Below, piece by piece: positions 7,427 through 60,620 of a stretch of DNA of 64,000 bases. The stretch comes from Rhyzopertha dominica. Lineage: Eukaryota > Arthropoda > Insecta > Coleoptera > Bostrichidae. The DNA is taken from assembly GCA_025024175.1 (NCBI GenBank), contig QCXZ01000137.1, forward strand, positions 13,826,001 to 13,890,000, read 5' to 3'. Within the stretch, counting starts at the first letter, position 1. Every line of letters begins with the position of its first letter. The notes below the pieces were generated by a model, which was not told the DNA's origin, ran no database searches, and was given only the letters and a program-made list of their open reading frames with translations. Made by a program: the position numbers and the translations under genes.

Positions 7427-7434
7427 CATACAAC
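7427..7434. repeat. 8-bp target-site duplication, left copy (CATACAAC)
   Basis: CATACAAC sits immediately before the left terminus of the hAT element and recurs exactly at 10053-10060 immediately after its right terminus. An 8-bp duplication is the hallmark of hAT insertion. Confidence 0.97.
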
Positions 7435-7840
7435 TAGGGTTGCCAGGTCTCATATATCTCATATGAGATACATATATTCAAACAAAATCTCATATATCAT
7501 ATTGAACATTAAATATATGAGCAAATCTCATATATTATTGAAGTATCCTACAAACATATATTTTTTCTATTATTATATTGTTTAACTATTATTATAACCT
7601 GCAAAAAACACGCGCCAAAATACAAATTTTGTGACGCTGTCAAATCCTTCCACCAGCAGACTGTTCCACCACCACTCTGCGCTCTACTTGTGGTGCGCAG
7701 TTGAGCACGTCAAATCACATGTCATTCAGCATTCCACCGATTCGGCTTTTCTTCTTGTAATACCTTATGCTGTAATAATAACTTTGCTGAGAACTTTCAG
7801 AGGTTATAATATAACGTGGTGCATTGTGTTAATTTTCATT

Positions 7841-9885
7841 ATGTGCTCAACAGTAAGTGATAATTTAGAAACAGAAACGCTTGGTTCCGAAGATAATAGT
7901 GATAGCGAAGAAGAAAAGGGAATCAGTCAAACACGGAAAAAACCGAAGTATGATTCAAATTATAGAACAGAGTGGCAAAAATGTTACTCTTGGTTAAGAC
8001 CTCACAAAACTAATAAACATAGAGCCTTTTGTGTACTATGTAAGAAGGAATTTTCAATAAACCAAGGTTTACATCAGGTTTGATTACTGCAGGTAATAGT
8101 TTGTGCATGATGATATAATGAACTATATTTTTGTAGATCAGACAACACGAAAAAACTAGACAACATCAAGTACAGGCAGCTGCTATTAAAAATAATAATA
8201 CAATAGCAAAATTTTGTGTTCCCAATTCTGAGTATCCTTCACAAGATTTAATAGGAACTGCTATTGAAATTGCACAAGTTTACCACAACATCAAACATAA
8301 TTTATCTTACAACAGCTTAGATTGTGGAGTTAAACTATTAAAGCACATGTGTAAAAATATTTCCATTATAAAAAGTATAACGCTCGGTCGAACAAAAGCT
8401 GAAAGCATATGTATGAACGTTTTAGCTCCTGAAGCATTAACTATTGCTCTGCAAGGTATTAAAGATAAATATTTTGCAATACAATGTGATGCGTCCAACA
8501 TAAAAAACAGAAAATTTTTTCCCATAGCTATACAATTTTTCGATAATGAATTAGGAATTGTCAATAAATTGCTTGATTTTCAAGAAAATGCTGACGAATC
8601 TGCTCTTGGGATGTTTTCAATGATACGTACCACTTTTCAAAGATTGAATTTAACTTTTGATAATGTGTCTAGTTTCAGTGCTGACAACTGCAATGCAAAT
8701 TTTGGACAACACAATTCACTTTTTAAACATTTGTGTTCAGAAAACCAGTTTATAGTAAAGGCAAATTGTCACGCTCATATAATACACAATACAGTAAAAA
8801 AAATCGTTGATAATCTTGATTATGACGTTGAAAATTTAATTTTAAAAGTTTACGCCCACTTTTCAGTATCTGCTAAAAAAAGAGAAACATTAAAACAATT
8901 TTCTGAATTTAATGATATTGAATATAAAGACTTATTGCATCATGTTGTTACAAGATGGCTATCTCTTAACCCTTGCATTGAGAGGTTTTTAAGAAATTAT
9001 CTAGCATTACTGTCTTATTTTCGTTCGTTACGTGATTGTCCCCAACATATTAAAAAATTGTTGTATTTAAAAGATGATGAATTTGAAAATACGACACTCA
9101 ATAACATACCAGAAATATACTTACTTTTTTTAAATAACTTATTAAAGCTTTTTGAAGAGGTCATTAAAAAGTTAGAAAAAAACTCAACTTCAATTATTGA
9201 AATTTACCTTATTTTTGAAAATTTAAATAAAAAGCTTGTTGAGAGAAAAGAACAAAAATTTTTTGGGTATACGGTCAATCAAAAGTTAAAACAACTGGAT
9301 GCGCCGAAAGCAAATCAGATCGAAAATGATTTATTAAATGGTTTAACTTATGCTATAACTTATTTAAACAAATGGTTTAATTTAGAAAAAGATAACAATT
9401 TTTTATATAATGTTAGTATGTTGAATTTAAGTAATCAACCTATTGTATACAGGGATATGTGTAATATTTTATTATTTTTTTCTGAAAAATTGGTATCTTC
9501 TATTGATAAAGACTGTTTGTTTGATGAAATTACTACATTGAATGAGATTATTCGTACTGTGACAAGCGATGAGCAATTTAAATTATTAGACCCAGTAATG
9601 AAATGGGTCTATATCTTCAAAAAGACTAACGACGAGTTGGTCAACTTAAAAAGAATATTAGGGTTTGTTTTAAGCATACCAGCATCAACTGCCTATACTG
9701 AGCGTGTATTTTCGATAATGGGGAATAAATGGAGCGATGTTAGAAATAGATCTACACTTCAATTAATTAAATCCGAATTGTTAATTACATTAAATTTTGA
9801 CAAAACTTGTTCTGATTTTTTTGATGATGTTGTAAAAGATCAAAAATTACTCATTAAATGCAAAAGCGGGGCTAAATATGCCTAA
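7841..9885 (+). CDS. hAT transposase with BED zinc finger, two exons (7841-8077, 8137-9885)
   Basis: Predicted 661-residue transposase acting in the nucleus to excise and reinsert the surrounding element. The first ATG in frame is at 7841. Exon 1 (79 codons) joins exon 2 in phase 0 across a 59-nt GT-AG intron (8078-8136). Visible parts: an acidic stretch about residues 7-25; a BED-type zinc finger with C64, C67, H83 and H89, whose two cysteines are in exon 1 and two histidines in exon 2; a RNase-H-like core with probable catalytic D197 (in QCDASN) and D262 (in FSADNCNANFG); the conserved W353 in VTRWLSLNP; and the C-terminal hAT dimerisation block ASTAYTERVFSIMGNKW, with E601 the likely third catalytic acid (assigned by family pattern). 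Length fits the family. All these residues are present and the frame is unbroken. The open frame extends upstream to about 7631 but lacks another ATG. Confidence 0.93.
8078..8136 (+). other. 59-nt intron inside the transposase gene
   Basis: The donor is CAG|GTTTGA at 8078 and the acceptor is TTTTTGTAG ending at 8136. Removing it joins two open frames in the same phase and completes the BED finger (cysteines before, histidines after). Without splicing, a TGA at 8081 stops translation right after the CxxC half. A second possible donor (CAG|GTAATA at 8093) would retain that TGA and give a truncated product. Confidence 0.8.
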
Positions 9886-9949
9886 TTTGTATGTTTTCTT
9901 TATGTTTATTTTTGTTTATGTTTACATTTTAGTGTTTTTTTATGAAGAA

Positions 9950-9955
9950 AATAAA
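9950..9955 (+). terminator. AATAAA polyadenylation signal of the transposase gene
   Basis: Canonical hexamer 65 bases after the transposase stop codon and about 97 bases before the element end. Confidence 0.7.
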
Positions 9956-10052
9956 TAATAATTTTTGTGTTGAGATATGTATTTTTTTTCCTGTCTCATA
10001 TATTTTTTTCATTTGATTCATATATATTTTAAAATTGGAGATGGCAACCCTA

Positions 10053-10060
10053 CATACAAC
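10053..10060. repeat. 8-bp target-site duplication, right copy (CATACAAC)
   Basis: Exact match to 7427-7434, abutting the right terminus of the hAT element. Confidence 0.97.
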
Positions 10061-19545: not shown

Positions 19546-21368
19546 TTGTACAGGGTGAGCAGATAAGAGAGGTGGCCGGTCATATCTCATAAACTAGTAA
19601 CCCTAGAGCTTTGAGGTAAAAAATATCTTAAGTAAAGTGGCCAAGAGAAATTGCTGGAAAATATTTTCGAGTTTGTAACGTGAGGGCGCTGTGGTACCTC
19701 CAAATTACAAAATTAATGTTTGTGTCATTTTTAGCCTAATAAATGTCTGCTGTATTAAACATTTTAGGATTGTTTGGACTAAAATCTACTATTTTTGTTT
19801 CGTACATTTTTTTTTGTTAAATGTCAAATAAAGGAGTGGTGGGCGGGTGAATATTAATATAGAAAATCGCTAATATTTCAGGTTTGGCTTGATCGATTTC
19901 AACCGACGAGGTGTCGTTTTCAAGAGCTTATGTGCCCTTATAAAAAGCAATTTTAAGTGTCAGATCATTGTTTGTGTGTTGACCACAAGAGGGCGTTTTC
20001 TGAGTTTACTACCTAAATATCAATTTTTCTCGAAATTTTTAAATGCAAAGTTATAAGGCTGTTTACTTTATTAAATGAACAATTGAATATAGACTAAAAT
20101 GGTGAAAACCGCACCATTTAAAAAAATTTGGAAAAATCGATATTTAGATAGTAATTTTAGAAAACGCACTCTTGCGGTCAACACACAAACTATGTTCTGA
20201 CTTTGAAAATTGCTTTTTATAAAGGCATATAAGCTCTTGAAAATGACACCTCGTTGGTTGAAATCGGTCAAGCCAAACCCAAAATATTAGCGGTTTTCTA
20301 TATTAACATTCACCGGCCCCCACTCCTTCATTTGACATTTAAGAATAAAATGTTCTAAACAAAAATGATAGATTTTATTCCAAGCAATCTTAATTGCTGG
20401 AAAATATTTTCGAGTTGTTAAAGTGACCACTAGGAGGCGCTGTGGCACCTCCAAATTACAAAGTTAATGTTAATATTTTTTAACCTAATAAATGTCTGTG
20501 GTATTAAACATTTTAACATTGTTTGGATTGAAATCTACCATTTTTTAGAACATTTTTTTGTTAAATGTCAAATAAAGGAGTGGGGGGCGGATGAATATTA
20601 ATATAGAAAATCGCTGATATTTTAGGTTTGGCTTGACCGATTTCAACCAACGAGGTGTCATTTTCAAGAGCTTATGTGCCTTTATAAAAAGCAATTTTAA
20701 GTGTCAGAACATAGTTTGTGTGTTGACCGCAAGAGGGCGTTTTCTGAAATTACTACCTAAAATCGATTTTTCTCGAAATTTTTAAATTGTGCGGTTTTCA
20801 CTATTTTAATCTATATTCAATTGTTCTTTTATTGAAGTAAAATAGCCTTATACCTTTGCATTTAAAAATTTCGAGAAAAATAGATATTTAGGTAGTAACT
20901 TCAGAAAACGCCCTCTTGCGGTCAACACATAAACAATGTTCTGACACTTAAAATTGCTTTTTATAAGGGCACATAAGCTCTTGAAAACGACACCTCGATG
21001 GTTGAAATCGGTCAAGCCAAACCTGAAATATTAGCGATTTTCTATACTAATATTCACCCGCCCCCACTCCTTTATTTGACATTTAACAAAAAAATGTTCT
21101 AAACAAAAATGGTAGATTTTAGTCCAAACAATCTTAAAATGTTTAATACCGCAGACATTTATTAGGCAAAAAATGACACAGACATTAATTTTGTAATTTG
21201 GAGGTACCACAGCGCCCTCTAGCAGTCACTTTACTAATTTCGAAAATAAATATTTTCCAGCAATTTCTCTTGGCCACTTCACTTAAGAAATTTTTTACCT
21301 CAAAGCTCTAGGGCTACTGGTTTATGAGATACTACCGGCCACCCCTCTTATTTGCTCATCCTGTACAA
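19546..21368. mobile_element. fold-back element, a hairpin followed by its own inverted copy (1.8 kb)
   Basis: The ends are inverted: TTGTACAGGGTGAGCAGATA at 19546 and, read from the other strand, TTGTACAGGATGAGCAAATA at 21368. About 510 bases at each end are inverted copies of each other with scattered differences. Between them lie a shorter inverted arm (about 20110-20388) and a shorter direct arm (about 20397-20795). The spacers at about 20056-20110 and 20796-20865 are themselves inverted copies. The whole therefore reads as arm-loop-arm' followed by the inversion of the same unit. Blocks recognisable in all four arms include AAGAGGGCG and a GGTTTGGCTTGA-type segment. No coding capacity and no clear target duplication. 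Superfamily unknown. Confidence 0.8.
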
Positions 21369-22380: not shown

Positions 22381-23390
22381 TAGACAGGTATCGATATTCG
22401 ATACCGGTGCAGTATCGATACTACTCAAAAGTATCGAAGTATCGAAAGTATCGAAGTATCGAAAGCATCGAAGTATCGAAAGTATCAAAGTATCGAAAGT
22501 ATCGAAGTATCGAAAGTATCGAAAATATCGAAAGTCTCGAAAGTATCGAAGTATCGAAGTACCTAAAGTATCGAATAGGGCTGAGCGATAGCATTAGACA
22601 AGTATCGATATTCGGTACCTTCAATATATTTGATGCTGTCAATATTTTGGACGCTTATATTTTTTTTGATACGTACTTTTCCAACTGCATTGTTTTAATT
22701 TTTAATATTTTCATTACTATTAACAACGCCGATGCATTGGATGCTGCAATACCTATGGAGCTTCTCATGCTTTAAATTAGTGCAATACTCGATTTTCAAC
22801 ACATTTGATACTTTCAGTACCTTTGAATACTTTTAATACTTGAATACCACGACAAAGTGGTATCGATACTCGATACCGGTAGAGGTAACGATACTTTGAG
22901 TAAGTATCGATACTCTGCCCAGGCCAGATCAATGCTTTCTAATTTTCAATATATTTTATACTTTCAGTACTAATACTATCGATACCTCGATACTTTTCAG
23001 TACTTTCGGAACTTCTATACTTTTAAACACTTTCGATACTTCGATACTTTTGAATACTTTCGGATTTCGATACTTTTGAATACTTTTGATACTTCGATAC
23101 TTTTGAATACTTTCGATACTTCGATACTTTTGAATACTTTCAATACTTCGAGACTTTGAATACTTTCGATACTTCGATACTTTTGCATAGTTTCGATACT
23201 TCGATACTTTTGAATACTTTCGATACTTCGATACTTTTGAATACTTTCGATACTTCGAGANTTTGAATACTTTCGATACTTCGATACTTTTGAATACTTT
23301 CNATATTTCGATACTTTTGAATACTTTCTATTTCGATACTTTTGAATGTGGTATCTACCGCCAAAGGTATCGATACCTTGCCCAGCCCTA
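22381..23390. mobile_element. hAT-like non-autonomous element built of TATCGA repeats (1,010 bp)
   Basis: It is bounded by perfect 8-bp direct repeats GTATCCAT. The right end reads, inverted, TAGGGCTGGGCAAGGTATCG, a typical hAT-like terminus; the left end is TAGACAGGTATCGATATTCG and appears to have lost part of that terminus. The left part (about 22428-22575) is an array of 8-9-base AGTATCGA(A) units. The right part (about 23030-23345) is a tandem array with a 27-base period made of the same monomer on the opposite strand (CTTTTGAATA-CTTTCGATA-CTTCGATA). Internal end-like sequences (TAGGGCTGAGCGA near 22576 and GTATCGATACTCTGCCCAGG near 22905) suggest that a second related copy is nested inside. 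Contains Ns at 23262 and 23302. No coding capacity; frames through the arrays are artefacts. Confidence 0.85.
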
Positions 23391-40619: not shown

Positions 40620-41150
40620 CATAGTACCGTGGTAACTTCGCTGGAGCATTGCGCTAAGGAGGAACATCGTTTTGTAATTCGTTTGTCAGTCCAGCGAGTA
40701 GTGTGGAGCCGTTTCATTGAATCCTTAGGAAAGGAAAATGCTCTGATTATCCTGGATGAAATCACTGCATATTCGGAAATGGCATGCATATTATGCACCA
40801 TATCCTCAATTTTCATAAAGTACAGTAAGGTTGGTGCCAGAATAATCAACCCCAAAATTGAAATGACGTCTTGATTTATGTGAAGCAGAACAGGCCTTTC
40901 TGACAAGGGTGATGACTGGAGTTGGGTTGTAAGTACACTATCAACCAAGCCATTATCATGTCCTTGGTCAACCTAAGGAGCCATTTGGTGGATAAAATTT
41001 CAAAGTAATCATGATCGAGGTGGTACATGAGTGGCTCTGCACACGCCCAAAAGAATGTTTTTTCTTCGGTTATTGAAGAATGTAATTGAGGCTACGTCGA
41101 AAAATGACATACTTATTTATAACATCGCTTTAATAAATTTTACACAACAA
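40620..41150 (+). pseudogene. mariner relic with N- and C-terminal parts, middle deleted
   Basis: The start is clear: VTSLEHCAKEEHRFVIRL (40632-40685) matches the SETMAR-type mariner N-terminus (S-EHC-KEEQRSVIRFL). The end is clear too: YHVLGQPKEPFGG, then VVHEWLCTRPKE (41020-41055) matches the C-terminal Y-VFGPLK and V-EWL-TQPK blocks. The 3' sequence at 41101-41140 is shared with the minus-strand relic at 60.05-60.10 kb (same subfamily). The catalytic middle is missing or unreadable. Confidence 0.65.
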
Positions 41151-49249: not shown

Positions 49250-52190
49250 AAATATATCAATAGAGGTTTATATGTAAACCTTGTAGTGCTTCGTATTGAT
49301 TTTCCGGATGTTCATAATACGAGGGGGTAATGATAAATAGTCATTCTTGACTGTTTGGAGTATTATAACATCTCGTTTCCGCAGCACTATCTTTTTACTA
49401 TTTAGAAGTATATCAAGAAATAAAAAAAGCCAGCGTACGGTCAGCATTTCTGCCACTCCCTGATATACCGACGGGCCGGCCGTCTACGCTGGGTTGGAGG
49501 GGTATATGCTAATAGTGCGATTGCCTAGCGCACGTTCATATTCTTTTTATGTTTTCTTAGTGTTGTTGACTTAATCGGTCCATTTCAGTGTTGCTTTATT
49601 AATTTCTCGTTTCTTGTCATTTCTAGCTATTATTCTTCGTTCTTCCTAGACTTCTTAATAGTTGTTTTCTCTTCCTCTTTTTCGTTGGTCTTCGCTTAGT
49701 TCCCAGGTCTTCCTCAATATGTTTCTCTCCTTAAGATGTGTCCCTAGTATTTATCTTGAAGAGTTTCTTGCAAGCTGCTTCCGAAGTTCCATATGTTTTG
49801 TCTGGTGTGATTTACAGATTTTCTTCTTATTTTTGTTGCCGGATTTGTGTTTTATTGCTGGACAACGTTCTCCGCATATATCTATTTCGTGAACCAATGT
49901 GTTCCGTAGGTTGCTTCTGTACCACAATTGCGTAATTTCTTGTATACACTTGTTACGACGACAATAATAGTAATCGCAACTCAAACACAAGGATGAGATA
50001 CACATTATTAATACAAATTCTAAAATTCAGTATTATTGTTTAACGCGACGCTCATCTTGGGCCGGTGTTTTTCAGCTCCATTTTGGCTCTTGGAACAATT
50101 CAGCAATTCGTCTTTGATGAAAGCGGTTAATTTCCATTTACTGCAAATGTTACATTTGTAACTGGTGCCTAGTCTATTCAAGAAGCTTTCAGGTTAAAAA
50201 GGAGATTATTCAACTTCTCAATTTTGGTTCCTTCGAATTGCGCAAATATTCTCGCTTCTTTGAGTCTCTTCCCAATTTTCATTGTTTAGCAAGTCGCAAA
50301 GTTAATCAAAATTCAGTTGACTTTGTTTTTAAGGTCAAACCTTTAAAATATGGGTTATACAAAACATGCCACAACTAACATACTCCCATGCAGAAAATGT
50401 AATCTTAACTTGAGTCACAATCTCTTTTGTCTTTGGTCCTTGTCATGCGAAAATGACTTTAAAGTCATTAAAACTAAGTGATGGAGAAATATTTTCAGTA
50501 TCCGAGCAAATCGTGGGTTTGCAAATTTAGTTTTAAAAATTCGTTTGTAATAATTCCGCTTCTTGATAAAATTGTGAAAATATGCAACAAATTAACATTA
50601 TCTTGTATTAAAACATCAAATATCACAGTGAAAATCGTTTGCGTTGGTTTCAGGATTACGAGAAGCAAGTGATTGACGAGTTTCAATAGGTACAAATTAT
50701 TTTAATTTATCCATACCATTTTAAATTAATATAATGTTCAAAATCTGAAAATTTGGATTGGAAAAAATTCGATAAGTACCGCATTGCATTTTATAATTTC
50801 ACGGCGTTTCGTTTTAAATCAAAAGTGTTGTATACAAAATGTGTTGGAAAAGGTTTTTAAATGGAAAAGTTAATTATCAATTTATAAAAGTTAAAAGACT
50901 TACCGTGTAACACTCCGTTTTGAATTTATTATGGACTACAGCTCAAAATCTTTTTGAGCTATTGCCTGTTCCGGTAATTACATTCAATTAGAGAAGGCAT
51001 TTCCGTGTAGCAAATAACGAAGCTTCTTTGTACTTGTAGCCGCTTTTGCAGTTTAGCACTATACATTTCTTACCCTAACCATTTAATGAGACACCAAGGA
51101 CCTTTGACAAATTGGGAATATGTGTTCAACAGATCTTAACACGTTGGCGTACATTATATTACTAATAACACTAATTTGAACAAACATCCATTTTAATCTT
51201 TTGATGTTTGCTTTTTAAGTAATCATTATACCAAAAAATCCTCCCGATTTACTATAGATTTTCAATTAGCGCTTAATCACTCACAGATTCCATGTTTTCA
51301 TCCTACTTGCTACAAAGTCACGTAATCTTACATAGAATCGATGATAATTTACACTTTAGTATCGGTTAAATCAGGATGTATAATTTGGGTAATTTGCCTT
51401 TTAAGCTAACGAAACTAACAATTATACGTACGTAGTTCTTTATAATATAATTTTTTATAATCAGAATGGGCTTTATTAAATTACCTAAGGAACAAAATAA
51501 TCTTTCAACGAATAAATCTTTACGAAAAGTTTGGAATACAGGTTGCTTAATAAGTCTAATTAATTTGTTCCATTTAATGAAAACTAACTTTTGACAAGGC
51601 AGTCTATAAAGTATTTCAGCTTATTTTAGCGATTATATAAGAAACAGACGATTACAAAAACTTCATTAAAACTTGTGCTAATTGTTATAAAATCGATACC
51701 AACGTTTTATTCATCGTTAGGGACACGAACTTAAAGTTAGACATTATTTTATAAATAGGAGCTTGAATATACTAGCAAGTTGTTGGGAATATTAAATAAG
51801 TGTTCTTAAAACGGAATACCTGTACGCGGAAACTTTGACTTGCAAAAACCACCACAGAAAACTTATTAATTGCAGAATAATATTAGAATCAAAGCAAATG
51901 GGCCAATACACTTGTTGAACAAAAAAATAAACGGCCACATGTAGCCAAGGGTACTTTGGATTATTATAAAAAGGCAACGTCCACTTATTGCCTGGTTAAC
52001 CAATATCTCCACAATTTTTGCCCTACATTATGGGTAGAACATTACAAAGTTGTACAAGTGCATGGATTTAGACTTCTTAGGAGGATTGAGTCGATGACGA
52101 GACCCCTTAGTGAGTATGTTTCGCTATTTCTGTCCTATATTTGTCTGTTCTTTAATGATTTACTTACTTTACTCCAAAAGTTGCTACAAA
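49250..52190. other. AT-rich non-coding stretch
   Basis: No gene, RNA or repeat recognised. Confidence 0.45.
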
Positions 52191-52196
52191 TAGAAC

Positions 52197-52210
52197 ATTT
52201 ATTACTTAGT
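52197..52210. repeat. 14-bp target-site duplication, left copy (ATTTATTACTTAGT)
   Basis: ATTTATTACTTAGT recurs exactly at 52559-52572, on the other side of the hammerhead element. Confidence 0.85.
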
Positions 52211-52265
52211 AAGAATTTAGGATGGCAATGCCATCTGTCAGCATTACACTGACACGATGACAAAG
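52208..52265 (+). repeat. 58-bp perfect inverted repeat, left arm
   Basis: Identical to the reverse complement of 52339-52396 at all 58 positions. Its first three bases belong to the target duplication. The arm itself holds two small palindromes, GATGGCA-A-TGCCATC and TGTCAG-CATTACA-CTGACA. Confidence 0.97.
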
Positions 52266-52338
52266 CCACCTAGCTGCCTTAACGGGTACTACTTCCTAAA
52301 GGAAGTGACCTGTAGCCTGACAAATTGGCATGCAACTG

Positions 52339-52396
52339 CTTTGTCATCGTGTCAGTGTAATGCTGACAGATGGCATTGCCATCCTAAATTCTTACT
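52339..52396 (-). repeat. 58-bp perfect inverted repeat, right arm
   Basis: Exact inverse of 52208-52265, separated from it by 73 bases that include the hairpin ACTTCCT-AA-AGGAAGT. Confidence 0.97.
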
Positions 52397-52436
52397 TTCA
52401 TCATACCATTGCTTTGGTATATAAGCAAAACCAGTT

Positions 52437-52540
52437 CTATGCCGTGTTGTCTACACTAGACCTAAACTGCACTGATGAGCTGTAATGACAGCGAAATAGC
52501 ACTATCTGCAGTTGGTTGAGGTGTAGACAGCACAGCATAG
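52437..52540 (+). ncRNA. hammerhead ribozyme, complete core (type I)
   Basis: Core box CTGATGA at 52472-52478. Stem II GCTGT-AATG-ACAGC (52479-52492). GAAA at 52493-52496. Short stem III TAG-CA-CTA (52497-52504), then T-C, placing cleavage after C52506. Stem I inner helix AACTGCA (52465-52471) pairs with TGCAGTT (52507-52513). After an internal loop, an outer helix of 20 pairs (52437-52456 with 52521-52540) has one mismatch and one G-U. All conserved core bases are present. The short stem III is typical of hammerheads of Penelope-like elements and retrozymes, which often work best as dimers. Self-cleavage is predicted, not shown. Confidence 0.92.
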
Positions 52541-52558
52541 ACTCAGACATGCATTTTA

Positions 52559-52572
52559 ATTTATTACTTAGT
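52559..52572. repeat. 14-bp target-site duplication, right copy (ATTTATTACTTAGT)
   Basis: Exact match to 52197-52210. Confidence 0.85.
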
Positions 52573-55500
52573 GTTATTATTATCACATAACTGTTCAAAT
52601 TTTATAGATATTNTTGCAAGANTAGGTAAAATAGTAAAACGAACAAAATACACTACTTGTAAAACTTTAAAATATTTATTTGCTACATTTATTTAAGTAC
52701 AGTGTTTGCACAAAACATACGCATGTGATTACAAAAAAATAAACATTTGTCAGTATCACGGCGACATAATCATAAACATAGAAAGAAACAATAACAATCC
52801 TCAATAAGCAATACTCAAACAATGGAAATGGCAAGGAAAAAGCAATTGTTAAGATAAAAAAAGATCACATTATCAGAAATAGCAGACTCATAAGTTTACA
52901 TTTTACTAAGCATAATACATATCATTGTTTTAGAAACGTTTTTCTATTATTTTACCTTCAAACTCTGGAGGACAAGAAGAACAAAGGACCAAGAACGGAT
53001 CCTTGTGCAACAAAATCTAACATTATTAAATTTATTAACTGTCAAGAAAAAAATAAAATTTGATTTTAATATTTAGAATGCCACGTTTACCAAAATGTTA
53101 TTCTTAATTAAAAAAATGCTACAAAAAATAAATTAGTACTCGTGGTCGAAGATGTTTAGAATATATGGTTGCTTCTATAAAGAATAATTTAGTTTTGGTC
53201 AACTGGAATTATCCTATAATAATCTACAAAATTTTTAGATTAAAACCGTTTGATGACTACAAAAGTACTCGTAACTAATTTAGTGAATAATATGTTTAAA
53301 TTCACACTCATCCTTTCTAAATAATATTTTATTTTCTATTAGTATTGTGTAGTGTTTGAAATAAAATTTTGAAAACCCCGGTGCTCTATAATGTATTTTT
53401 TAGCATTTAAATTTTTTTACTAAAGTAGGTTTCTGCACACTTAGATTTTCAGTGAGACCGAAAGTCGGCAGAATTTATTTTTTTCCTCAGCAAACCACAA
53501 TTTTCTGGTATTTTATATATCCAGACCTTTGAAAACGGTTTTGTTTGTATTTGGTAGAAAACCGGCATATTACCATAAACGAACCAGCATGGCTTCCTGT
53601 AGAAAGCATTCTGGGAAAAAGGCATTTCGGTTTCACCGTGTTATTTATTTTGGTAAATGAGTTGAGTTGAATTAGTTTTTCTGACGATAATAATTCGATT
53701 GCTTTACAGGAATTTCTCTTTTAGATGTGAATTTTGTTCAGTTTTACCTTAAACAAAACATTCGTACCTGATCGTGGATTTTTAATTTTAATTAATTTGG
53801 GTGTATCATTATTAAAAGTGTCAATTTCCTATTTTTATCTGTTAACATAATATATGTTTTTGTTTCTATAAATTTTAATCTAATATAATTTTTAACCCAT
53901 TAAACTCTTCGGCTTACAATGAAAAAGTAAAAAGTTTATCAGTTTTTTTAATAATATTTTAGTCGGATAAAGTTTATCATGTTTAGTTCTAACAGTTTGA
54001 AATTTATTCGTTTTCCTAATAAAAAATTGCAAATAATTATTTAGTCGTTTTATTAGCAGCTTAAATATTTATGTGGGTAACCTCTAACTCTGCAGGACCA
54101 GGTACAGTATTTCATCAATGACGATCTTTTGTTTATCGTTTAGATTAGATGTGAAGTTAAAAAAGTTAAAAACACATAAATACTGTCAATGACAAAGAAC
54201 TATTTTTGTAATCGTTAAAAATATTTTTTATTCGCATAAATTTTTATACGAGTAATGCCCAACTGTGATTTTGATGTAATTGTTGTTAATGGGCTATTTT
54301 GTCCCGGTCCATTTTGTCGTTCCACCTCTATATTACTATATTACATATGACATTGTCGATGACTGTCCTTGTTGCACCTGTGACTCTGGTAAAAGACAGC
54401 TGCCACAACATTTTTTATGTGATAATAACCATTCATTAAGACTGTATCTAGATATTCCTGCACTGCCAGAATGTCCCCCAAAATCGATGTTTATGTGTCC
54501 AATGATGTGTTTTCTTCTAAATAAGAGTTCAGTCACTGTTGAATTTAAAGTTGCTGTTTAATGATCTGTAAATTATGGTCAAATTGTGCTTTTCCGGGGT
54601 GATACCTAAACGGTTGCAGAATATGAATTAGTATATGGGGCAAACACGCGTTGTGTTGATTTCCTCAACGAATTCCATGAGCATTTAGGTTCGCCCCTTT
54701 TGAAGCTTACATCATGTTGAAATAAGGCCCGGGAATATTCTGAAGCAGTTTTCAATTAAGCCAATCCCTCAGGATACGCGTAACAAAGTAGAATCCTTCG
54801 AGTTCAATCCGCTACTAATCCATCGACAAAGTTTCTTTTCAGTTCTCCCCGAGTGCTCGATCGCTGTAGCGTTTCAGCGCACGCACAAGGACCGCCTGCG
54901 AAAATTTTGCAGTCCCCGATTTCCTTCGCAAACTCGTGTCCTTTTACGTGACGACTTTACAAAATAATCCAGCACACATCTAGAATCGCCTCTATGTTCG
55001 TCTTGATGAAACGCTCTGTCCAAGGTGAATATGAGTTCGACCCAAATAAACAGAAAAACCAACAAGCGCGCACATGACAGCGGTGTACCTGGGTTATTCA
55101 CTAATAAACTCGTATATGGTTGTGTGCGTCACCGTTGCGCTCCTTGACATCGTTAGTGTTGACTTGGATATGGCACCTCATCAGCTGGTGCAAGAATTCC
55201 GACTTATCTGGAAATAGAAACATGTTACCCATGAGCACGCGGATGGAAAACGATGCTGATGCAAATTGAACACATGTTTCTATGATTCCTAATTTTAACT
55301 GCGCGTAATCTGTGTCAGCAGCAAGCAGGTGGTATATTAGGGAACCATATTGATGGGAACAACGGATATATCACAGTTGTACATAAATACATTGTACAAC
55401 TTTCTTCAAATTTCTCGTATACTTCTGCATTCAACCTTTCCGCAGATCATCTTCGAATTCTAAATATATAGCAATGCTCGTTTTGTTCTTTCTGCAAAAA

Positions 55501-57946: not shown

Positions 57947-59990
57947 GAACTTTCCTCGACTAATTCTTTAAGGAAACGAGCGTGGTAATGAATATATTAG
58001 AAAGCAAATCATTCGCATAGTTGTGGATGTGAACAGAGAACTTTTTGCCCTACTTCATAAGCTTCCTGCAGAAGTATGAATTAGTCTTATTCTAGCTATA
58101 AATGAGTATCACTTACCTTCCACTTTCTAATGCCGTTTGAGGATTTTTGCCATTCTTGTTTCAACTGTTACTTTCCGTTGTCTCATTTCGCACTACTTGC
58201 TACTTATTCATAACTGACTATTAATTCCAAGCGCATTTCAAAACTACTCCTAACTATCCTGTGATGATTAAAAATTCAATCGTATTATTTTCGCATATTT
58301 TACAAACTCTGTGGTTAAATTCTTGCACGTCGTTCATCGAACTCTTTCTTCGATCTCGAGTGTATTCGAGTCTTTTTAGGCGATTTAGTTATTTTTGTAG
58401 CGTAATTAGACTAGATTTATTTACCTTCTTCACGGCTTCTAGCGACCTACATTTTTACTTTCTCCGTTTTATTCTCAGAACACGTCTTATTTTCCGGTCT
58501 CATGTAGAAAATAATCTACATAGCTAGCATTGCTGATATATTCGTTCATCTACTAATTAAACGCTGTTTTATAGTGGATTGTTTATAGGCAGGTGAAAGC
58601 TACGATGATACAAACAATAATCCATTGTAAATCACTTTTTCTACATGCAGCTGCTGATTAAATCAATAATTGTTTATAATGAATATTTGTGATTTCATAA
58701 GTAGGCTGTGAAATGAATACGTTAACGAATATAATATGTAATCAACATATCAGTCATAAATTTTAAGAAGGTATCTTTTTAGCCACTTGATACACTAAAT
58801 ACATTCCACCTCGCTGGAGACCTTGCAAATGTAAAGAACATTTCACCGGCGGTAATTCGTTTTCACGGTTTTTGCAGCAACCCTTCTCTTTTGTTATAAT
58901 TGACAATTATACATCAATATATTAAACCTGTGTCTGGCAAGTTGGCATGCACCTGCACATGCCAACTTGACAACAGGCTTACTTGATGCTTTTTGCTGAG
59001 GACTGGTGAACAAATGGTTAGTTGATAAAGTGAATCTAAAACAACTGTAGTCTTATGGAATTCATTCCTGGAGATCAGTTTGGAATATATAAATCTTACA
59101 ACAAGAACTTTAAGCTAAAGCGGTAAAAACAATCAACGCGCCATGGTTTATGCCACAACACACTAAAATACTTTAGAAGATACCAACTATGAGCGAAGTA
59201 TCAAAAAGCGTAAATTTAAAATATTTGCCACGTCTTCGAGTTCATTCAAATTATCCAGTTGTGAATCTGCTTGATAATAACCAACAAACGTACAGAATGA
59301 AACGTTTAACACTATTGACCTATTTTACTGTCATCAGATTATGTAAGTTAAACTTTATAATATAACAGTAAATTTAGCTACTATTATTTTTTTCTACCAT
59401 TCATGGACAGATTTTAAACATTAATGGAGTTAGAAAAAAGAGATATAATTGAGATAACAGTAACCAGATAATCTACCTTTCATATGTACTCATTGCTTAT
59501 TATTTTTTGTTTTCTAACGCCTTTCTATTTTAAGACGCTAAAAAGAGACTATACCTTACAAAATGCATGTAATGAATTCGATTACCAGATTAAACCTGAG
59601 CTCCTGTATCTTTCCAAAGTATATATAAGCACTACTGTTAATTACGTCTAGATCAATTTTGCCAAGAATTGTCTCGTAAATAAGGCTCAGACAGACTCCG
59701 TTAATGAACATAATTTACCCCATAGAAATCCGACGCTAATGAACTAATTCAATACAAATTGAAACGCATATTGCTTCAACTGTAACCTAACCCTGACCGT
59801 GGCCACTAAACTACGACTTGTCCGCTATTTCTGACGTCAGTGACGCATAGCAACTCATCGCCTACCCTAACAACTGCCGCGTCGCGACGGTGCAGTGGCG
59901 CACCCCGCTACTTACCAGGGGTGCTCATTAACTATAATTCAAGAAATAATACTGTAGCATTCGTTTTAAACCAATGCCCTATTTTTAGGT
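57947..59990. other. non-coding stretch
   Basis: No gene recognised. A fragment at about 58926-58960 resembles part of the hammerhead element and forms the hairpin CAAGTTGGCATG / CATGCCAACTTG. Confidence 0.4.
58926..58971 (+). repeat. hairpin related to the hammerhead element's spacer
   Basis: CAAGTTGGCATG and CATGCCAACTTG form a 12-bp perfect stem with an 8-base loop. The left side (ACCTGTGTCTGGCAAGTTGG and on through GCATGCACCTGC) aligns over about 30 bases, with a few differences, to 52304-52340 inside the hammerhead element. Confidence 0.5.
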
Positions 59991-60039: not shown

Positions 60040-60620
60040 AAAACGTTGTCATATGAATTTATTAAAGCGATGTTAACAACAAGTATGTCATTTTGCCACT
60101 TCGCCACTTGGAAGTGCTTCAATAGCCGAAGAAAAAATTTATCTTTAAGTTGATCACTTAGGGCGAGGTCAGGGGAATAAGGAGTATGTGGTAGACACCC
60201 AAATATACAATTTTGGATTTAGGCGCAGTATGCGGCCGTGCTGTATCATGTTGCAAAAGAATAACCTTACTTGGACATCCTCGCCTTTTGTTTTTGATGG
60301 CTGGCTTGAGACCATTCTTCAGGGATCCAGAGTATGTGGTACTTCTTAACACTGACCCCAGTAGCCATATATCTTCCAAAATTACCCCATTTGCGTGACC
60401 TTTCCTGCCAAGAGCTGTGTATGAAAGAGTGACGCCATCCTTTGCCTATTCTCTGTGTTTCAAGTTGATGATATTGCACCCACAACACATCTCTAGTCAT
60501 CACCTTTGTCTGAAAGGCGTCAATTGCTTTGGCACCCGTGTTGCTGATGCTTTATACAAATTGAGAATATCGAGCATAATGTGCTGTAAAGAATCATGAG
60601 CCCATTTTTTTTTAATTTGT
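60040..60620 (-). pseudogene. mariner transposase relic (SETMAR type)
   Basis: Minus strand in shifting frames: VLWVQYHQLETQRIGKGWRH (near 60430-60490) matches DETWV-HYEPETK-QSMEWRH. Then PAIKNKRRGCPSKVILLQHD and TARPHTA (about 60225-60310) match KRRG-LSKGVILQHDNARPHTA with the second catalytic Asp. A shifted YSPDLALSDQL (about 60140-60175) matches the third-aspartate block. The 3' sequence (60050-60095) matches that of the relic at 41.1 kb. Several frameshifts make it inactive. Confidence 0.75.

Follow-up and report, generated by a model that had tools for sequence, protein, structure and literature searches.

The 64,000 nucleotides of Rhyzopertha dominica DNA analyzed here (contig QCXZ01000137.1; hereafter the window) contain a short segment in which a hammerhead ribozyme lies beside a long, perfect inverted repeat, the whole enclosed by two copies of the same 14 bp. 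What kind of element is this, and how did it come by its inverted repeat? An earlier note, made from the sequence, had proposed a small retroelement with a hammerhead, a target duplication and no coding sequence, similar to the retrozymes of animals, and had offered a template switch as one possible origin of the palindrome. The first proposal is borne out by the 14-bp duplication, the hammerhead core and open reading frames of at most 55 aa. The second is the option that fits best, and it has a counterpart in inverted copies of Penelope elements that have been read as products of self-priming.

The borders of the element are set by ATTTATTACTTAGT, which stands at 52197-52210 and again at 52559-52572 with 14 of 14 positions identical and bounds an inserted segment of 348 bp (52211-52558, forward strand). 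Shuffling rules out a chance origin for this direct repeat, as it does for the inverted repeat and the hammerhead described below. When the 1100 bp around it were dinucleotide-shuffled 200 times, no direct repeat of at least 14 bases appeared, and a length of 13 was reached in three; the repeat stands as the earlier note had described it. Exact 14-base pairs spaced 100-1000 bp apart number only three in the window (pairs starting inside a repeat block at 19.5-23.5 kb being left out), and the remaining two are A- or T-rich runs. The target sequence is A or T at 12 of its 14 positions, its first bases being ATT, and two single N bases lie close by (52613 and 52622). Another exact 14-bp repeat, ACAAAAAAATAAAC, is found around the element at 51919-51932 and 52731-52744. 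We set this pair aside as an alternative duplication because, being of low complexity, it is probably a chance match; it could also be the mark of an older insertion enclosing the element.

The inverted arms occupy 52208-52266 and 52338-52396, are complementary at 59 of 59 positions and stand 71 nt apart, while the longest inverted repeat in 200 dinucleotide shuffles of the same 1100 bp was 18. What had been described as a mismatch-free palindrome of 58 bp is indeed perfect, but its length is 59 nt and it is not continuous, being an inverted repeat interrupted by the 71 nt between its arms. The left arm adjoins the left ATTTATTACTTAGT, its outer 3 nt (AGT) being common to that target copy, whereas the right arm is internal to the element. 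An arm that stops at the left target copy would have been there at insertion or have arisen during it; a separately acquired palindrome would have needed to land on the exact left border. None of the 59 pairs is G-U, in contrast to the outer stem of the ribozyme, where 21 positions include one G-U and one C-A. This difference points to recent copying rather than to an old selected hairpin, and together with the identity of the arms (0 differences in 59, a divergence of at most about 5% as a 95% bound) it leads us to read the left arm as newly copied. The left arm would then be a truncated inverted copy, on the reverse strand, of 52338-52396, with the right arm (forward strand) as the presumed original sequence and the 71-nt loop (52267-52337, forward strand) as the place at the element's 5′ end where the strand presumably folded back.

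Toward the 3′ side lies a type I hammerhead ribozyme (52456-52526, forward strand) with its core at 52465-52513, matched by an Rfam family and by a descriptor. Rfam HH9 gives 27.3 bits, the only hammerhead among the matches listed at relaxed thresholds, with E = 1.2e-4 on 601 local bases and 0.013 on the whole window; this score falls below the curated HH9 cut-off of 52 bits, and at gathering thresholds the whole window gives no match to any Rfam family. The descriptor called for a stem I of at least 5 bp, CUGANGA, a stem II of at least 3 bp, GAA, and a helix III of at least 3 bp starting with A-U, followed by H. With stem minima chosen when the sequence was already known, it finds one match across both strands of the window and none in 60 shuffles. 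It places stem I at 52465-52471/52507-52513, the beginning of the core sequence at 52472, stem II at 52479-52483/52488-52492, GAA at 52493-52495 and helix III at 52496-52505, all on the forward strand. The three stems measure 7, 5 and 4 bp, the last becoming 3 bp with a GCAC tetraloop if a 2-nt loop is disallowed, so that helix III consists of the core A-U pair followed either by two pairs closed by a tetraloop or by three pairs closed by 2 nt. Self-cleavage is predicted after C52506 (AUC / UGCAG, 52506-52507). As far as the sequence can tell, the descriptor agrees here with the earlier note, which had called the hammerhead complete and had placed the cut at 52506/52507.

An outer stem clamps the ribozyme, its 5′ side at 52436-52456 being complementary at 19 of 21 positions, plus one G-U, to its 3′ side at 52521-52541 (both on the forward strand). 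In the energy model the ribozyme misfolds when this clamp is removed. The unconstrained energy minimum does not contain the canonical core, part of which pairs otherwise; keeping the core open costs about 2 kcal/mol, with helix III then unpaired. The helix III decamer pairs with a second copy of itself at 8 positions (-2.9 kcal/mol). This modeled pairing between copies makes it possible that the ribozyme acts as a dimer, a mode of action reported for other type I hammerheads (PMC7229834; PMC6155905).

The element has no coding sequence, in line with the earlier description, the longest open reading frame wholly inside it being 55 aa. A six-frame Pfam search of about 5 kb to either side, with E values up to 0.01 admitted, returned no family, Penelope or other, and the two incidental open reading frames of the element, used as queries in a protein collection, yielded no candidate. 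An open frame of 121 codons (51887-52249, NQSKWANTLVEQKNKRPHVAKG...) enters the element from the left; it has no Pfam match in the flank scan and could contain an exon. The G+C content of the element, 43.1%, is not exceptional, as 23 of 193 flank windows are as high. With both arms, the whole element is predicted to fold at -187.2 kcal/mol (z -20), and strong self-pairing persists in the 292 nt that are left once the left arm is taken away (-104.2 kcal/mol, z -6.3). Upstream of the ribozyme, a TATATA motif (52418-52423, forward strand) is a possible promoter element. The last 17 nt (52542-52558, forward strand) form the 3′ end of the element, which adjoins the right target copy and is the presumed start of reverse transcription.

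Relatives of the element were sought within the window and beyond it. The window holds no second copy: apart from the element's own inverted arms, the best match is a 32-nt stretch at 58926. This stretch (58926-58956) is half of a short hairpin resembling the 71-nt loop, with 27 identities in 32 columns and one gap, at 32.8 bits, a score reached by 1 of 300 shuffled elements; the likeness stops with that hairpin, and we regard it as a curiosity rather than a relative. A 27-base pattern of the hammerhead core was absent from viral and from prokaryote contigs, a gapped stem I pattern was absent from viral contigs, and of the arm patterns one was absent from viral contigs and another from prokaryote contigs. 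A 20-base core pattern hit one contig (L001) with a 22-nt identity. We attribute this hit to chance, the identity lying inside a translated frame open over 100 codons with no CTGATGA core beside it. A distant blastn search of the element against phage records gave no match. Among the literature matches listed, no title or abstract opening named a retrozyme whose 5′ end bears a long inverted copy; on snap-back or self-priming in target-primed reverse transcription, one review was listed.

The window contains several other repeats. An apparently complete hAT DNA transposon at 7435-10052 is flanked by an 8-bp duplication, CATACAAC (7427-7434 and 10053-10060), and has terminal inverted repeats TAGGGTTGCCAGGT and TAGGGTTGCCATCT that agree at 12 of 14 positions; its 512-aa open reading frame includes a hAT dimerization domain and has named relatives in insects, fish and others. 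A large fold-back structure spans 19546-21368, with arms at 19546-20393 and 20513-21368 and ends TTGTACAGGGTGAGC..., internal direct repeats about 744 bp apart, no evident target duplication, and a weak MIR530 match at 20728-20920. Minisatellite blocks at 22411-22575 and 22972-23347 are built of AGTATCGAA-like units in opposite orientation. An inverted pair of 82 nt at 41058-41139 and 60056-60137, 80% complementary and 19 kb apart, is probably two copies of one dispersed repeat.

On balance, we judge it somewhat probable that the element is a short, non-autonomous retroelement with a type I hammerhead, an animal retrozyme in type, which entered by target priming and gained its left arm by fold-back self-copying. 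The template would be an RNA with the type I hammerhead, and a Penelope-like element would be the likeliest source, in trans, of the endonuclease and reverse transcriptase. An AT-rich site would be cut with a 14-nt stagger, and target-primed reverse transcription would copy the RNA leftward from its 3′ end at 52558 and on beyond the ribozyme. Somewhere around the 71-nt loop, and presumably at this stage, the 3′ end of the new strand would fold back and copy 59 nt of itself (52338-52396), leaving the left arm as a truncated, head-to-head inverted copy. The folded-back end would then attach to the target, a match of 3 nt (AGT/ACT) perhaps serving for the join. The RNA may also have been cleaved or have formed circles. 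Counting against this reading are the presence of one hammerhead unit only, with no second copy in the window, when retrozymes are mostly tandem; the lack of a Pfam domain within about 5 kb; the absence of the core from the energy minimum; and the sub-cut-off Rfam score. Such a duplication could also come from LINE machinery.

Comparison with known systems bears on both halves of this reading. Animal retrozymes are described as non-coding units of about 170-400 nt with low G+C (<50%), type I hammerheads and a mostly tandem arrangement; their target duplication, when present, exceeds 4 bp, their RNA is highly self-paired, and in invertebrates helix III is given as two pairs plus a tetraloop (PMC7229834, Cervera and de la Pena 2020). 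The present element resembles this description in being non-coding, in its 348 nt, 43.1% G+C and 14-bp duplication, in its predicted RNA fold, highly self-paired with or without the left arm, and, as judged from sequence and with an HH9 score below the cut-off, in its type I core with a short helix III. It differs in having one unit and one ribozyme within the window in place of the usual tandem repeats, in the perfect 59-nt inverted copy at its 5′ end, and in its TATA-like upstream motif, retrozymes being reported to lack promoters (PMC7761336). The W-elements of Schistosoma are described as short, non-coding, putatively mobile and satellite-like repeats, some with functional hammerheads (PMC8490949). 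They are alike, by description only, in length, lack of coding and hammerhead, one of them having a putative target duplication, and different in being satellite-like and in that the available part of that account does not describe a comparable inverted arm (PMC8490949).

The alternative that survives best accepts the retrozyme and makes the hairpin a family trait. The source RNA would already have had both arms, and the 348-nt unit would be a normal monomer with a built-in hairpin serving stability, protein binding or the blocking of reverse transcription. A length inside the retrozyme size range, the high self-pairing of retrozyme RNAs and the whole fold of -187 kcal/mol (z -20) agree with such a monomer. 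The 59 perfect pairs, free of G-U where the ribozyme's outer stem has drifted, do not, and neither does an arm that ends exactly at the target; we hold this alternative to be a serious though unlikely one.

The preferred reading, in which the arm arose by fold-back copying during insertion, draws its mechanism from Penelope elements. In Adineta vaga, Pen families are reported with inverted pseudo-LTRs lying head to head and palindromes where these join; several copies have duplications of 8-10 bp, and in one family the pseudo-LTR bears at its 5′ end a palindrome of 38 bp that is nearly perfect (PMC3846280). The pseudo-LTRs contain a TATA motif, solo pseudo-LTRs are reported, and the authors infer self-priming for the inverted copies, favoring a version in which the template is antisense (PMC3846280). 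Our element shares with them a partial inverted copy, head to head at the 5′ end, a feature seen there in many but not all copies, as well as a junction palindrome, a TATA motif and a target duplication (8-10 bp there, 14 here). This anatomy, including inverted junction palindromes and one palindrome of 38 bp, is already on record for Penelope elements (PMC3846280), so that the palindrome is not as unusual as had been claimed. The element seems to belong to an established type, not to a new one.

The element also differs from Penelope. Penelope-like elements carry an open reading frame for a reverse transcriptase and, in canonical ones, a GIY-YIG endonuclease, whereas this element has no open reading frame for either. 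Their pseudo-LTRs are formed by tandem or partial-tandem copies, and the window contains no second direct copy or pseudo-LTR. Penelope hammerheads are usually described as being without helix III (PMC7761336, PMC6155905), while the element's helix III has 3-4 bp with the core A-U pair, though it is weak in the energy model. A Poseidon-type Penelope enzyme from the anole offers a further comparison. It is reported to prefer AT-rich DNA with ATT and to start copying inside the RNA, usually 111-118 nt into the ORF; the ribozyme is reported to cut at 26 and its cleavage to be unnecessary for insertion in vitro (PMC11167929). The anole element is alike in that its hammerhead lies shortly upstream of the reverse-transcription start and its target is AT-rich with ATT; it differs in being coding and in that its start lies 85-92 nt past the cut (by subtraction), against 52 nt here (PMC11167929). 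Because cleavage is dispensable for insertion of the anole element in vitro, the intact ribozyme of the present element need not have acted.

These likenesses also admit that the element is not a retrozyme at all and is instead a fragment of a coding Penelope-like element, namely a solo pseudo-LTR whose 5′ end bears another pseudo-LTR, truncated and inverted. The inverted 5′ copies, palindromes, TATA motif and solo pseudo-LTRs reported for Penelope (PMC3846280), and the TATATA at 52418, would all suit such a fragment. Helix III, usually missing in the Penelope hammerheads described (PMC7761336, PMC6155905), is present here, and no coding trace is found inside the element or within about 5 kb, which leaves this origin improbable in our view. 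By analogy, the element gives the impression of a retrozyme RNA that entered the DNA as a Penelope element would.

Two further explanations account for the arms differently. In the first, two unrelated events would have placed a fold-back or MITE-type element (52208-52396) beside a hammerhead sequence, the arms being readable by eye as terminal repeats of 59 bp, with the dinucleotide TT flanking each end. That element would have needed to insert exactly at the left border of a duplication whose other copy lies beyond the ribozyme, a coincidence to which we assign very little credence. That the perfect arm is an assembly or library fold-back artefact, as identical arms and the nearby single N bases at 52613 and 52622 might hint, is scarcely credible, since it leaves unexplained a 14-bp duplication that fits both the outer end of the palindrome and the 3′ end of the ribozyme segment.

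The return of retrozymes to DNA is described as unproven, with Penelope-like elements suggested as helpers (PMC7229834), and the palindrome would fit this idea of Penelope machinery moving retrozymes. The two would be linked by a junction of just this sort, in which a unit of retrozyme type has both a clean 14-bp duplication and an inverted 5′ copy in the style of Penelope. We therefore propose, tentatively and as a possibility that we rate below an even chance, that a retrozyme-type hammerhead RNA bearing the self-primed, head-to-head fold-back signature of Penelope is structural evidence of Penelope-type machinery mobilizing animal retrozymes, with self-priming on a first strand of about 290 nt. 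The identical arms suggest that the element is recent enough for comparison with its source copies. If the palindrome proved common to the family, it would instead represent a new structural variant of retrozyme RNA.
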